In this document: one piece after another, positions 9,946 through 19,523 of the stretch
How the letters are laid out: each line of letters starts with the position of its first letter
Position numbering within the stretch: position 1 is the first letter of the stretch
DNA from: an uncultured Clostridia bacterium
GTDB taxonomy: Bacteria; Bacillota; Clostridia; Christensenellales; Borkfalkiaceae
Assembly (NCBI GenBank): GCA_947631195.1
Contig: CANRKK010000015.1
Span: forward strand, 1 to 45,764
Length of the DNA: 45,764 bases
Direction of reading: 5' to 3'
Translations under genes and position numbers: made by a program
The notes under the pieces: generated by a model
The model's input: the letters and a program-made list of their open reading frames with translations, nothing else
Databases searched by the model: none
What the model was told of the DNA's origin: nothing

Positions 9946-10770
9946 TTGAACAAGCACACCTTTATTCGGGAAAAGTCGCTTGAAAGATACAACTGCAAAT
10001 ACAAAGAGGTTGAATGGTATGAGTATTCCGAAGAGGAGCAGCAAGCTGTAAGGCAGTTGCGACAAACAAGAACACGAGCCTCTCCGCCGAAGATAAAAAA
10101 ACTCAACGATGAGCGTTCCCGAAAGTACTTCCGCTGGCTCTTGCAGAACAATTTCAGTGGGAACGATTATCACGTCACGTTGACTTTTCAACGCGAGCCC
10201 ACCAAAGAGCAGGCGAAAAAAGAGTTTGTGAACTACATCAAACGCTTACGTCGATTGTACGACAAGGCGGGTGTTGAGTTTAAATACATCTACGTCTGCG
10301 AGGGCAAGAAAAGCAGAGCAAGGCTGCACTATCACATTGTGATGAGCGGCGGAGTGCCTCGTGACGATATCGAGAAGAAGTGGACGTGCGGTTTTGCGAA
10401 CGCTGACCGATTGCAGATTGACAAGCAGGACGGGCTGTCGGCTCTTTCCCGATACCTCACCAAAAGCAAGGCTTATGCCGACAAAAACGAGCGTGCGTGG
10501 AACTGCTCGGCGAACCTCAAACGCCCGGACGAGGTGACGGACGACAACAGCGTTTCCCGAAAGCGAATGCGAAAGGTGCAGGACGCGAAACGCAACGACG
10601 AAGTTAAGCGAGTTATCGAGCGGATCTACATAGGCTGGCGAGTGATTGATTACGACGTCGGCATAAATCCCGTGACGGGCAGGGATTACGCTCGATTTAA
10701 GCTCCTGCGAAAACCAAATTATAAACGGTTTATGTCGCTGTACAAGGCGATAAAAAAGAAAGGTGGTTAA
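9946..10770 (+). CDS. rep: HUH-type replication initiator (Rep)
   Basis: The 274-residue product carries the three rolling-circle Rep motifs in order: YHVTLTF (75-81), the metal-binding HUH motif LHYHIV (H128, H130) and a catalytic-tyrosine motif SRYLTK (Y170, K173). These enzymes nick one strand at a hairpin origin and stay bound through the tyrosine. The start is a TTG at 9946 after GGGGAGATGATAAAAT. No ATG is available in frame nearby. It is far shorter than P2 gpA and closer in size to plasmid or microvirus Reps. Its origin is probably in the symmetric region immediately upstream. Confidence 0.85.
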   Translation: MNKHTFIREKSLERYNCKYKEVEWYEYSEEEQQAVRQLRQTRTRASPPKIKKLNDERSRKYFRWLLQNNFSGNDYHVTLTFQREPTKEQAKKEFVNYIKRLRRLYDKAGVEFKYIYVCEGKKSRARLHYHIVMSGGVPRDDIEKKWTCGFANADRLQIDKQDGLSALSRYLTKSKAYADKNERAWNCSANLKRPDEVTDDNSVSRKRMRKVQDAKRNDEVKRVIERIYIGWRVIDYDVGINPVTGRDYARFKLLRKPNYKRFMSLYKAIKKKGG

Positions 10771-16318: not shown

Positions 16319-17561
16319 CACTCCCGAATACTGCCTTGTCGATATCGACGCTCTCCTGCCTTACGCCCGAAACGCTCGCAAACACTCCGCAGAGCAAATC
16401 GCACAAATCGCCGCGTCAATCAAGGAGTTTGGTTTCCTTGCGCCCGTGGTGATTTCCGAGGATAATACAATTTTGTGCGGTCACGGGCGTTTTTACGCAG
16501 CTCAGAAACTCGGACTTAAAAAAATACCCTGCATAAAAGAGGACCATCTTACCGAGGCGCAGCGACGCGCATACATTATCGCGGACAACAAACTCTCGCT
16601 CAACGCAGAATGGGACAACGAGCTGTTGGCGGTAGAACTTTCCGTGCAGGGCGAGGATTTCGATTTGTCGCTCCTCGGCTTTGACGATAAAGAGATAGCC
16701 GACCTTTTCGCAGACGGCGACAAAAACAGCCCTCAAGACGACGAGTATGATTTAACCTCTGCGCTGGAAAAAGCCGCGTTTGTAGAGCGCGGGGATATAT
16801 GGACGATCGGCAGACACAAGTTGATGTGCGGCGATGCCACAAGCGCAGACGATGTTTCCGCTCTTATGGGAGATACCAAAGCAAACCTTATTCTGACTGA
16901 TCCGCCTTACGGAGTGTCTTTCAAAAGTTCAAGCGGTCTGACTATTCAGAACGACAGCATGAAAGACGAAGAATTTTACAACTTCCTACTCTCGGCATTT
17001 AAGAATATGTCTGACCACCTCGAAAAAGGGGGCTCGGCTTATGTGTTTCACGCTGATACCGAGGGGCTTAACTTCCGCAAGGCGTTTATTGATGCAGGCT
17101 TTCACCTCGCAGGCTGCTGTATCTGGGTGAAAGACAGTCTGGTGCTCGGACGATCCGACTATCAATGGCAGCACGAACCTGTGCTTTATGGTTTTATGCA
17201 GAACGGCAAGCACAAGTGGTATTCCGACCGCAGACAGACCACGATCTGGAACTTCGCAAAGCCGAAACGCAATGCGAACCACCCGACTTCAAAGCCGCTC
17301 GACCTGCTCGGCTATCCTATCGGAAACTCCACGCAGGAAAACGCGGTAGTTATAGATACATTCAGCGGCAGCGGCTCTACGCTTATGGCGTGTGAGCAGA
17401 TGAACCGCATTTGTTACACGATGGAACTTGACGAAAAATATGCGTCTGTAATCCTGCGCAGATATGTTGATGATACGGGAGATGCGGATGGTGTGTATGT
17501 GGTGCGGAACGGTGAGAAAATACCCTACTCCGAACTTGTGAAAGAGGTGGAGCATGAGTAA
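16311..17561 (+). CDS. ParB-like domain fused to a DNA N-methyltransferase
   Basis: The 416-residue product begins with a ParB-like nuclease-type domain (about 6-100, with GHGR at 57-60). It continues with a beta-class adenine/N4-cytosine methyltransferase: catalytic DPPY at 197-200, then a target-recognition region, then the SAM-binding motif DTFSGSGST near 348-356. The motif order IV-TRD-I defines the beta class. The GTG at 16311 follows GGGAGGTGG. Such fused enzymes are common in Clostridial prophages, where they protect phage DNA or mark it. The base specificity cannot be read from the sequence. Confidence 0.9.
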   Translation: MSNTPEYCLVDIDALLPYARNARKHSAEQIAQIAASIKEFGFLAPVVISEDNTILCGHGRFYAAQKLGLKKIPCIKEDHLTEAQRRAYIIADNKLSLNAEWDNELLAVELSVQGEDFDLSLLGFDDKEIADLFADGDKNSPQDDEYDLTSALEKAAFVERGDIWTIGRHKLMCGDATSADDVSALMGDTKANLILTDPPYGVSFKSSSGLTIQNDSMKDEEFYNFLLSAFKNMSDHLEKGGSAYVFHADTEGLNFRKAFIDAGFHLAGCCIWVKDSLVLGRSDYQWQHEPVLYGFMQNGKHKWYSDRRQTTIWNFAKPKRNANHPTSKPLDLLGYPIGNSTQENAVVIDTFSGSGSTLMACEQMNRICYTMELDEKYASVILRRYVDDTGDADGVYVVRNGEKIPYSELVKEVEHE

Positions 17562-17943
17562 TGAGCAACTCACACTCGGCAGTCTGTTTGACGGCAGCGG
17601 CGGATTTTTGCTCGGCGGTGTTCTCGCGGGAATAAAACCCGTCTGGAAATCCGAAATTGAGCCGTTCCCCATAGCCGTCAAAAACAAGCGGTTCCCCGAT
17701 GTAAAACACTACGGCGATGTTTCCAAACTGAACGGTGCGGAAATCGAGCCTGTGGATATAATTACTTTCGGAAGTCCGTGCCAAGACATGAGCATTGCCG
17801 GGAAAAGAGCAGGTCTTGACGGTTCACGGAGCAACCTCTTCTATGAGGCGATAAGAATTGTAAAGGAAACAGCTGAAATGACCGCACAGCGACTCGGCGG
17901 AATACACCAATGTGCGCATTATGCGCTACGCGCAAAACGCTGA
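17554..17943 (+). pseudogene. DNA cytosine-5 methyltransferase, truncated
   Basis: Residues 1-105 match the start of C5 methyltransferases: SAM motif I LFDGSGGF (11-18) and the catalytic motif GSPCQDMSIAGKRAGL (C76). After EAIRIVKE the similarity stops, and the frame runs through a hairpin repeat (17916-17940) to a stop at 17943. The recognition domain and motifs VI-X, some 200 residues, are missing and are not found downstream. It is therefore probably inactive. It overlaps the upstream methyltransferase gene by eight bases, so the two once formed a modification pair. Confidence 0.8.
17916..17940 (-). repeat. Hairpin repeat copy 1
   Basis: On the minus strand: GCGTTTTGCGC-GTA-GCGCATAATGC, an 11-bp stem with one G-T pair and one T-T mismatch and a three-base loop. 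It lies at the 3' end of the truncated C5 methyltransferase gene. It is related to the copies at 18591, 18782 and 19277. Confidence 0.7.
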
Positions 17944-18002
17944 AACGGAGTCGCTCTGCCCTGTGTGTATTTCGTGCTTGCAGGCATTGTCTAGGCAAAC
18001 GA

Positions 18003-18036
18003 AAAAGAGAAAACGGGGTGACCGCTTTCTCTTTTA
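18003..18036 (-). terminator. Terminator of the RHH gene
   Basis: AGAGAAA-A-CGG and CCG-C-TTTCTCT flank GGTGA, and on the minus strand the stem is followed by TTTTTCGTTT. It ends the leftward RHH gene (stop at 18034). Confidence 0.65.
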
Positions 18037-18219
18037 CTTCTTCTTGTTGGGACGCTTGCCGAATTCTATCGTTCCGTGTTCCTTTTCAAACTCCTCTATG
18101 CAGTTTCGGATAAGCACAATTATCTGTCCGTTTGCCGAGCGTGCCTCGTAATCCGCAATGTAATGCAGTTTGTCGAGCATCTCGCCGTCAATTCTTATAG
18201 ATAAACTTTTATTAGCCAT
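18034..18219 (-). CDS. Ribbon-helix-helix (Arc/CopG-like) DNA-binding protein
   Basis: The 61-residue product has the RHH layout: strand KSLSIRID, helix GEMLDKLHYIADYEAR, turn SANGQ and helix IIVLIRNCIEEFEKEHG. A GGAGG lies upstream of the ATG. It is the only minus-strand gene in the right part of the window, inserted between the truncated C5 methyltransferase and a damaged gene. Arc-like proteins are dimeric repressors; this one may regulate its own divergent region (18220-18332). Confidence 0.8.
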   Translation of the reverse strand: MANKSLSIRIDGEMLDKLHYIADYEARSANGQIIVLIRNCIEEFEKEHGTIEFGKRPNKKK

Positions 18220-18272
18220 AAAAAACCTCCGTTTTGCATTTATTATGACTTCATTTTAACACTAATATGTGG

Positions 18273-18278
18273 TATAAT
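18273..18278 (+). promoter_or_regulatory. -10 box for the SLOG-type gene
   Basis: A perfect TATAAT stands 54 bases upstream of the ATG at 18333, with no good -35 at 17 bases (TTCATT). This unit appears independently transcribed and divergent from the RHH gene. Confidence 0.45.
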
Positions 18279-18332
18279 GTAGGGAGTAGCGTCAAAGTGC
18301 GTTCAAAATATGTTTGAAATGAGGTCATAACT

Positions 18333-18696
18333 ATGCGAGTTGCAGTAGTAGGTTCAAGAAATCTGACGGTAAAGGACTTAGGCGTGTATCTCCCCGAAGA
18401 TGTGACGGAGATAGTTTCGGGCGGTGCAAAAGGCATTGACTCCTGTGCAAGGGAGTATGCTCTGGCTCACGGCATCAAGCTGACGGAGTTCCTGCCCGAA
18501 TACAGCCGATACGGGCGTTCCGCACCTATCAAGAGGAACATAACCATAATCGAGAATGCGGACTTGGTGCTTGCGTTCTGGGACGGCAGAGCGTTTTCCC
18601 GCGGAGCGGGATAATGCGCCCGCAGGAACGAAATTCGTTATAGACGAATGTAAAAAGCGCGGCATTCCCGTAAAGATACTGCGCCCAACTGAATAG
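18333..18696 (+). pseudogene. SLOG-domain (DUF2493/YspA-like) protein, interrupted by a hairpin repeat
   Basis: Residues 1-87 (MRVAVVGSRNLTVKDL...IVSGGAKGIDSCAREYALAHGIKLTEFLPEY...NADLVLAFWDGR) match small SLOG/Rossmann proteins that bind nucleotides or similar ligands. The frame then enters the hairpin repeat at 18591-18617, which brings a TAA at 18612. The missing end of the family resumes afterwards in a shifted frame as AGTKFVIDECKKRGIPVKILRPTE, ending at 18696. Removing about 25-28 bases would rebuild a normal protein of about 110 residues. It is disrupted unless the repeat is bypassed or processed. Confidence 0.8.
18591..18617 (+). repeat. Hairpin repeat copy 2
   Basis: GCGTTTTCCCGC-GGA-GCGGGATAATGC: a 12-bp stem with the same G-T and T-T positions as copy 1, but with a different inner stem sequence that still pairs. 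It disrupts the SLOG-type gene. Confidence 0.75.
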
Positions 18697-18781
18697 GCAT
18701 TGTGTAAACAGAACAAATTCTTCCTCCTGTTTTCTGTAGTATTACATCTTGCTATTTCGGGCAAAAAGAGCGAATATGTAC

Positions 18782-18806
18782 GCAATATCCGCTACGCGGA
18801 TAACGC
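18782..18806 (-). repeat. Hairpin repeat copy 4
   Basis: On the minus strand GCGTTATCCGC-GTA-GCGGATATTGC: an 11-bp stem with the loop GTA. It lies in the leader just upstream of the ribosome site of the gene at 18834, so it may affect that gene's expression without breaking it. Confidence 0.65.
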
Positions 18807-18833
18807 TTACAAAAAACAAAGGAGGAACTCAGA

Positions 18834-19523
18834 ATGGAGTTTAGATTTAATGTAACAGGAACAGACCGCAAGGCGCTTGTAAAGGCGATGGGCGATATTT
18901 TACAGGTAAAGCCGAAGTACCTCGGAATGCCAACGGCGGCTTATGAGGTGGACTACTTCACGGTCGACAAGAACGGCACGGTATCGTTTGACGACAGAGC
19001 GGACAGCGAAGAGATCGAGAACCTTATTGAAAAGCTCGACAGCTTGGGTTTCCACGCAGCCGATGCGAAAGTAAGCGAGGAAGAAGAAACTGCGCTGACC
19101 GTTGAAATGCCGCTCGACAAGGTCAAGGTCGGCAACCTTACCGCCCTGCTTGAGGCAAAGGGCAAACTCATCAAAAAGGCCCTCGGCATCGAGGACACCG
19201 CAATCGAGGTCACTAACGAAACCGTGAAATTCCCATGGTTTTCCGAACTGCCCGACGCCGACACGGTCAAAGCGTAGCGTTTTTCGCAAAGCGAATAATG
19301 CGTGCACTTCATTTCCGCACTCTGCGAAATGGCAAGCAACGCCAAGCGTGTGACGGCAACCGAAAAAGCGGTCGACAACGAGAAATACTCATTCCGCTGC
19401 TTTCTGCTCCGCTTGGGATTCATCGGTGCGGAGTACAAGGCTGAAAGAAAGATCCTGCTGAAGAACCTCACGGGTTCATCGGCTTTCAAGGACGGAGGTA
19501 AGAGCGATGAAGTTTCCGAGTAA
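18834..19523 (+). pseudogene. Phage 'virulence-related' type protein, split in frame by a hairpin repeat
   Basis: AAAGGAGGAACTCAG precedes the ATG. The first part (18834-19277, 147 residues, EFRFNVTGTDRKALVKAMGDILQVKPKYLGMPTAAYEVDYFTVDKNG...KALGIEDTAIEVTNETVKFPWFSELPDADTVKA) and the second part (from about 19302, HFISALCEMASNAKRV...NEKYSFRCFLLRLGFIGAEYKAERKILLKNLTGSSAFK) are two consecutive pieces of one family. That family is widespread in Clostridial phages and ICEs and is often labelled virulence-related. Both pieces are in the same frame, separated only by the hairpin repeat, which supplies TAG and TAA. The family's role is unknown. Confidence 0.8.
19277..19301 (+). repeat. Hairpin repeat copy 3
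   Basis: GCGTTTTTCGC-AAA-GCGAATAATGC: an 11-bp stem with the same outer bases (GCGTT/AATGC), a T-T mismatch at the same place and another compensated inner stem. It interrupts the gene at 18834 without changing its frame. Confidence 0.75.

Follow-up and report, generated by a model that had tools for sequence, protein, structure and literature searches.

How 25 bases can move is an old question, raised by ultra-small mobile hairpins. The SDR elements of Nostoc punctiforme, reportedly described by Elhai et al. in 2008, are said to be 21-27 nucleotides (nt) long and to share a fold with compensatory changes; they reportedly lie in tandem heptamer repeats, in mini-transposons and inside their own copies, and are said to be confined to one clade. 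The palindromic elements of Rickettsia are longer, about 100-150 bp. Among the SDR families, SDR5 is recorded in a passage of PMC4390886 as inserting precisely within HIP1. For the repetitive extragenic palindromes (REPs), published passages describe TnpA-REP proteins as using bulges and loops, and the abstract of PMC3733652 states that those with a CGTC tag "apparently lack a dedicated transposase". Here we describe a family of hairpin units of about 27 bases in a 45,764-nt stretch of DNA (hereafter the window), positions 1 to 45,764 of contig CANRKK010000015.1 of assembly GCA_947631195.1, which was binned as an uncultured Clostridia bacterium (Christensenellales; Borkfalkiaceae). The hairpins are very likely a mobile family, and the overall account that we consider likely is that a non-autonomous, ultra-small REP/SDR-like element has been spreading within a single genus of Oscillospiraceae, and that a phage or prophage of this group has acquired it. 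A preliminary description, drawn from the window's letters alone, had proposed a very small mobile, REP-like hairpin; three lines of evidence now support this reading: the stems covary across a dispersed family, homologues lack the element, and empty sites exist.

Re-examination of the sequence bore out the coordinates, strands and folds of the four hairpins first described: copy 1 (17916-17940, minus strand, 25 nt, GTA loop), copy 2 (18591-18617, plus strand, 27 nt, GGA loop), copy 3 (18782-18806, minus strand, 25 nt, GTA loop) and copy 4 (19277-19301, plus strand, 25 nt, AAA loop). The ATTGC variant of the outer bases, formerly assigned to the fourth copy, is actually in the third. The outer bases are shared as described, but the conserved unit extends one base further on each side, with A on the left and G on the right, giving units at 17915-17941, 18590-18618, 18781-18807 and 19276-19302. 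All four copies are real, but four was not the full count, as a fifth unit lies at 197-221 on the minus strand and contains a 23-nt hairpin with a GAA loop (198-220, GCGTTTTTCCGAAGGGATAATGC). A covariance model trained on 23 bacterial copies alone recovered all five, with E values of 5.4e-9, 5.1e-6, 5.9e-6, 2.2e-8 and 1.5e-4 for copies 1 to 5, respectively. The sixth-best match of this model in the window (10549-10571, inside an open reading frame (ORF), E 0.07) was weak and may be a decayed copy or chance. Taken singly, copies 1-4 have ordinary folding energies (z -1.2 to -2.9 against shuffles), so the case for the hairpins depends on the family.

The unit can be written A-GCGTTWT-(variable stem)-loop-(variable stem)-ATAWTGC-G; in the four first-described copies, A-GCGTT is followed by a T or A and then a T, by a variable stem, by a loop of three bases of which the last is A, and by A-T-AWTGC-G. 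A script run on the scanned stretches retrieved 129 core copies, a few of them chance-like, which were mostly 25 nt long, with others of 21-28 nt and one of 41 nt. In an alignment restricted to bacterial loci (23 distinct copies of 25 nt, those of the window excluded), 98.3% of the cells were paired under the proposed structure, and 17 cells were altered on both sides of the stem, a number reached by none of 500 shuffles; slid structures lowered the pairing to 16.5-65.7% of cells. Six of the ten base pairs were invariant, partly since the search pattern fixes them, and three inner pairs changed on both sides. The earlier statement that the inner stem differs between copies yet still pairs, by compensation, holds across the family. 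The lower stem is irregular and fixed, with a G.T third pair and T.T positions, at its base the stem has GC, and the conserved loop is mostly 3 nt long. Incidental copies, which were not chosen by the search pattern, offer a less biased check on the outer bases, and the flanking A...G was present in 21 of 23 of them. A 41-nt version with a longer inner stem was seen at L170:1889-1929 (loci are numbered with L and genomes with G), and tandem arrays of the unit at L097:5750-5833 and at L107:1-76 and 797-846.

Outside the window, an exact pattern scan of one genome per species returned at least 119 stretches, and the titles among the matches listed were Oscillospiraceae, Ruminococcaceae, Ruminococcus or uncultured Clostridia metagenome assemblies. 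A strict pattern matched 3-102 times in each of 20 genomes drawn from a scan that required the hairpin, and the reversed pattern never did. Nineteen of these scan-selected genomes belonged to one genus (titled Oscillospiraceae); the exception, G256 (titled Ruminococcus sp.), held 17 matches and was absent from the genus listing. Across that genus, strict-pattern matches were present in 39 of 43 genomes (1-102 each; at least three in 28 genomes and one in 10), with the most copies, 102, in G244, and the reversed pattern had 3 matches in the same 43 genomes. Elsewhere in the same family, 9 of 194 genomes (a sample of 197 with 3 known members of the genus set aside) had one match each, none judged by eye to be a hairpin, and 3 matches were found for the reversed pattern. 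A very loose pattern gave, by eye, about as many reversed as forward matches and was left unused. A chance origin of the hairpins was rejected on the strict and reversed pattern counts and the covariance-model E values. The first copy found outside the window lies on a viral contig (L034:4638-4664, E 3.6e-8, intergenic by eye), and a second viral contig carries one at L380:1844-1870 (E 5.4e-8). A wide viral scan returned at least 120 stretches, among the listed matches of which only the one in L380 forms the hairpin; on 18 chosen viral or phage loci, part of 168 (45 + 123), the covariance model gave strong matches only in L034 and L380.

The same element was then compared between filled and empty copies of the same repeats or sites, which take the forms L-A-E-G-R and L-NN-R. 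Clean pairs were provided by L175 against L126 and L152 (0 mismatches in 24 flanking bases), L168 against L194 (1 mismatch) and L286 against L260 (0 mismatches). An empty match was found for 38 of 86 site families, the other 48 having none, and the modal gap was 2 in 21 families, 3 in 6 and 4-9 in 11. At pseudo-sites shifted by 90 bases, a gap of 2 was the mode in only 2 of 139 families (21 matched) and 0 of 140 (19 matched), the mode being taken over all matches in this control and over the best matches at the real sites. With anchors reaching to about 22 bases on the right, 41 of 111 families were matched (70 were without any match); 19 of the 41 showed an exact two-base replacement and 36 kept the two-base rule within one base, single-base differences near the sites being common. 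In the window, copies 1, 2, 4 and 5 are each within one base of the rule and none is exact. The replaced dinucleotides were diverse, CT being the commonest (12/52). These matching empty sites suggest that the hairpin replaces about two target bases, instead of the target duplication that a MITE-like element (miniature inverted-repeat transposable element), considered in the preliminary description, would leave. At L034, direct repeats were suspected at first, but these look like a composition common to the flanks.

Several of the window copies interrupt phage genes. Copy 2 lies within a SLOG-type (YAcAr/DprA-like) gene, whose N-terminal part, a 93-aa ORF (18333-18614, plus strand; PF10686 and PF02481), runs into the hairpin; as first described, the C-terminal part resumes beyond it, in a different frame. 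The viral homologues were uninterrupted in 26 of 26 cases, and the window is 28 nt longer at this place. Copy 4 splits the gene that starts at 18834 and brings in-frame stops. The two halves are in the same frame, as had been noted, and its N-terminal part (147 aa, 18834-19277, plus strand) and C-terminal part (73 aa, 19302-19523, plus strand) match adjoining parts (156-350 and 352-423) of a single PHROG profile, phrog_2443, annotated as amidoligase. This gene was uninterrupted in 18 of 18 viral homologues and in three phage records, the window showing a net gain of 24 nt by hand count. Copy 1 is antisense to a decayed C5 cytosine DNA methyltransferase gene (17554-17998), close to its C-terminal end; a truncated 129-aa ORF remains at 17554-17943 (plus strand, PF00145). 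Its location in this gene had been recognised, but the gene is not simply cut off there: besides copy 1, a large internal stretch has been deleted, and C-terminal residues shared with three phage homologues lie on either side of the copy, those like the extreme C-terminus (NGVALP...FVLAGIV) resuming directly beyond it. By eye, the unit here replaces two bases, with one extra base nearby. Copy 5 lies, by eye, in an open frame on the minus strand with its start codon at 250-252, in a sequence of which the hairpin-bearing genus has multiple copies. The hairpin was present in none of 15 relatives aligned across this site, and in the best of them the difference, by eye, amounts to two bases exchanged for the unit and a single additional base. 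Copy 3 lies between genes and ends 26 bases upstream of the start codon at 18834. Ordinary coding DNA was rejected as an explanation, as the homologues of the interrupted phage genes are without the hairpin. Two outcomes had been set beforehand as contrary to a mobile element, namely homologues of all three genes with the same sequence as normal coding DNA, and a lack of further copies with empty-site counterparts in any genome; neither was found. Among the phage relatives, two carry the annotation 'Ca. Heliusvirales'.

The window contig (C15 of the assembly, G000) looks foreign to its bin, either mis-binned or a recent arrival from the hairpin-bearing group, because the hairpins and the left-flank sequence are found in the hairpin-bearing genus and not elsewhere in G000. 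Among the 93 genomes of the genus to which G000 is assigned, hairpins were found only in G000, all on the window contig, and two other genomes had one non-hairpin match each. Window bases 1-540 have relatives in 34 of the 43 genomes of the hairpin-bearing genus and no other full-length match within G000, whose listed contamination is 4.34%. The bases at about 541-576 resemble, by eye, the 3' end of a tRNA or tmRNA and adjoin a 347-aa ORF (614-1657) in an integrase-like place; ARAGORN found no gene.

For the analysis of the flanks, 149 copies were collapsed by flank similarity to 45 independent ones. C preceded the unit in 24 of these, and T, C and A followed it in 22, 30 and 28, respectively, so that the target beside A-hairpin-G is a T-N-C-A-like sequence. 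Among the 107 of 149 copies with sufficient flank, 29 were in ORFs, compared with 1597 of 2140 random positions (74.6%). Orientation relative to the neighbouring genes was mixed (26, 18, 17 and 13, plus 14 within ORFs; 88 of the 149 copies classed). Hosts of the hairpin include heptamer arrays, a palindrome resembling a terminator, MITE-like repeats and the loops of other copies, and nested, tandem and inverted-pair arrangements occur. A general preference for hairpin loops, which L175 against L126 had suggested, was rejected, with 1 such site found among the 45 independent ones and 0.6 expected. The arrays in L108, L185, L192, L110, L191 and L453-L456, which often host the hairpin, are degenerate heptamer repeats, (CTCTTAC)n and (ACTGTAC)n, and MITE-like host units with terminal repeats GAGCGTGTTCACATTAAC or GAGCCTGTTCAGAA were seen at L140:4100-4330 and L170:1830-2080. 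In L454-L456, L145 and L146, a second hairpin class with variable stems was seen by eye beside a AATCTAAAT repeat; composite elements with this second class also carry the main hairpin family in inverted pairs.

Some observations weigh against the account of a mobile hairpin. The two-base rule is inexact, the filled copy having one base more in 10 of the 41 matched families, one fewer in 7 and some other difference in 5; by hand count, the window likewise has an excess of one base at copies 1, 2 and 5 and a deficit of one at copy 4. The modal gap was neither 2 nor 3 in 11 of 38 families, some of them hairpin-in-hairpin artefacts (the large gap-6 counts are hairpins nested in hairpins), many of the empty sites compare different repeat copies and not strict orthologues, and copy 3 is without an empty counterpart. 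Ten of the 39 genomes hold a single match, the named records are metagenome assemblies, and the conservation of the outer bases is partly imposed by the search. Finally, no mobilising enzyme was identified.

One candidate for such an enzyme is the REP-associated tyrosine (Y1, RAYT) transposase, which would make the family a classical REP/REPIN. The size, the palindromy, the fixed stem mismatch, the strand asymmetry and the inverted pairs all fit, and the complementary strand has a TGNA-like tetranucleotide just 5' of the hairpin, where REPs have GTAG. CT, the commonest replaced dinucleotide, is also what the TnpA-REP of some species cuts, according to a passage of PMC8266576. However, there is no GTAG or CGTC tag, and PF01797, the Y1 transposase family, was found in only 1 of the 20 scan-selected genomes and in 9 of the 43 genomes of the genus, with no match in G244 despite its 102 copies, so that a resident RAYT is unlikely to be the mover. 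At 12 fetched Y1 loci, the hairpin was absent from nine, lay inside the Y1 gene in three and was beside the gene in none. The three interrupted genes (L255, L256 and L259; IS200-type; two from G281 and one from G284) share the same insertion place. Aligned to five or six relatives without the hairpin, they show the unit in place of about 3 bases with one extra base nearby, and the gene length changes by a multiple of three. That the hairpin interrupts these Y1 genes speaks against the idea that they are flanked by hairpins of their own, and we regard the REP/RAYT explanation as a whole as rather improbable. Three Y1 matches of equal length were listed for G281, two of which were fetched. In 0.92 Mb of loci, no larger element with the hairpin split between its ends was evident by eye, whether from left-only or from right-only matches. 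Nor did any gene appear, by eye, to have a hairpin clearly on each side, the pairs 1.7-2.9 kb apart in G244 enclosing unrelated-looking genes. For the SDR elements of Nostoc, spread through an RNA copy, by reverse transcription and insertion, has reportedly been proposed. The large number of near-identical copies in each genome would fit such a route, as would the third pair, G-U, which in RNA is a standard pair for the top strand but not for the bottom one; however, the T.T position is unpaired in RNA and DNA alike and the orientation to neighbouring genes is inconsistent, and we consider this route unlikely as well.

Less probable still is that the hairpin is a selected RNA or DNA signal, such as a terminator, an attenuator or an mRNA stabiliser, moved by ordinary recombination only. 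Its mainly intergenic setting and the stem kept by compensation would suit a signal, but both orientations relative to genes occur without clear bias, no Rfam family was found in the window at gathering scores, and the hairpin interrupts phage genes and Y1 genes and nests in itself and in MITE-like repeats. The preliminary description had also raised translational bypass or RNA processing that silently removes the hairpin, in the manner of byp. GCG triplets do flank copy 2 in joinable frames, the open frame is preserved, by eye, at copy 5, and copy 4 and the Y1 insertions alter gene length by multiples of three. Against this, a GCG-to-GCG jump at copy 4 misses the required frame, copy 1 runs antisense to a methyltransferase gene that is otherwise damaged too, and the bacterial copies are mostly intergenic without consistent orientation; the proposal is thus not supported and appears highly improbable, with copy 2 alone leaving some room for bypass. 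Returning to a mobile hairpin, the conserved loop and the fixed G.T and T.T positions have the look of features by which it is recognised, and for this reason we tentatively favour a folded single strand joined in trans. A single-stranded copy of the hairpin would form, either as DNA or as RNA that is then copied, and would be recognised through the fixed irregular lower stem (G.T, T.T) and the loop. An activity acting in trans would join it into the target with the loss of about two target bases, and the inner stem would be free to vary while pairing was kept. In the phage, copies would have landed in accessory genes, with three genes broken, one of them also by deletion. That all of this amounts to an undescribed mode of transposition is a more speculative possibility: a non-coding element of about 27 bases would be copied as a folded single strand without a resident RAYT, overwrite about two bases of a C-NN-TNCA-like target, reach about 100 copies per genome in the one Oscillospiraceae genus, nest in itself, in other repeats and even in transposase genes, and cross from host to phage, where it would break genes.

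Compared with known systems, the hairpin agrees with REPs in the broad sense, being a palindrome of 20-40 bp with many copies that are mainly extragenic. With the GTAG REPs and REPINs associated with RAYTs, as they are portrayed in passages of PMC3733652, PMC2817692, PMC3116915 and PMC8266576, it shares palindrome size, copy number, extragenic bias, inverted pairs and an unpaired stem position. It differs from them in its foot, which has A on the left and a G-T-N-C-A-like sequence on the right with no GTAG, and in its genomes, where a RAYT gene, often with the repeats on its flanks, is expected but Y1 genes occur in 9 of 43 and no copy flanks the gene at the 12 Y1 loci. The CGTC REPs, as described in passages of PMC3733652, resemble it in being REP-like and in apparently having no transposase of their own, but they have an AT stem base and mostly 4-5-nt loops, whereas the present hairpin has a GC base, mostly a 3-nt loop and no CGTC. 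The words Firmicutes and Clostrid- are absent from the texts of PMC3733652 and PMC2817692, and our findings place SDR/REP-like elements in Clostridia, a group that is unnamed in these REP surveys. The yeast mitochondrial GC clusters, as presented in part of PMC4478555, are likewise very small hairpin-like mobile DNA, and the Rickettsia palindromic elements, mentioned in PMC3733652, are likewise small palindromic mobile DNA inserted within genes.

MITEs and elements derived from insertion sequences have terminal inverted repeats and a target-site duplication, in contrast to the present hairpin, which replaces about two bases. Programmed bypass elements (byp, gp60-like) depend on frame-restoring triplets, which are possible at copy 2, fail at copy 4 and are inapplicable to the antisense copy 1. 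As to the hairpin ends of IS200/IS605 elements, which carry tnpA/tnpB, the 12 Y1 loci have no flanking copies, and the G244 pairs enclose, by eye, unrelated-looking genes. Because filled and empty sites are numerous, the preferred target is short, the replacement of two bases is near-constant and phage DNA carries copies, the family is good test material for candidate enzymes and intermediates. It also cautions that a short hairpin which breaks a frame in such phages and bacteria can be an insertion and not a sequencing error. The closest relatives by habit appear to be the Nostoc SDR elements. Like them, by their reported traits, the present family has a unit of the 21-27-nt type with a shared fold and compensatory changes, lies in heptamer arrays, in MITE-like repeats and in itself, and, except for G256, is confined to one clade. 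Unlike them, it belongs to another phylum, apparently differs in sequence and has no HIP1 target; it also replaces about two target bases and sits in phage genes. Within the open-licence literature searched, and with the SDR families compared by their reported habit, it looks like a new family of the known SDR/REP-like kind, whose clade, near-constant two-base replacement and copies in phage genes may be new.

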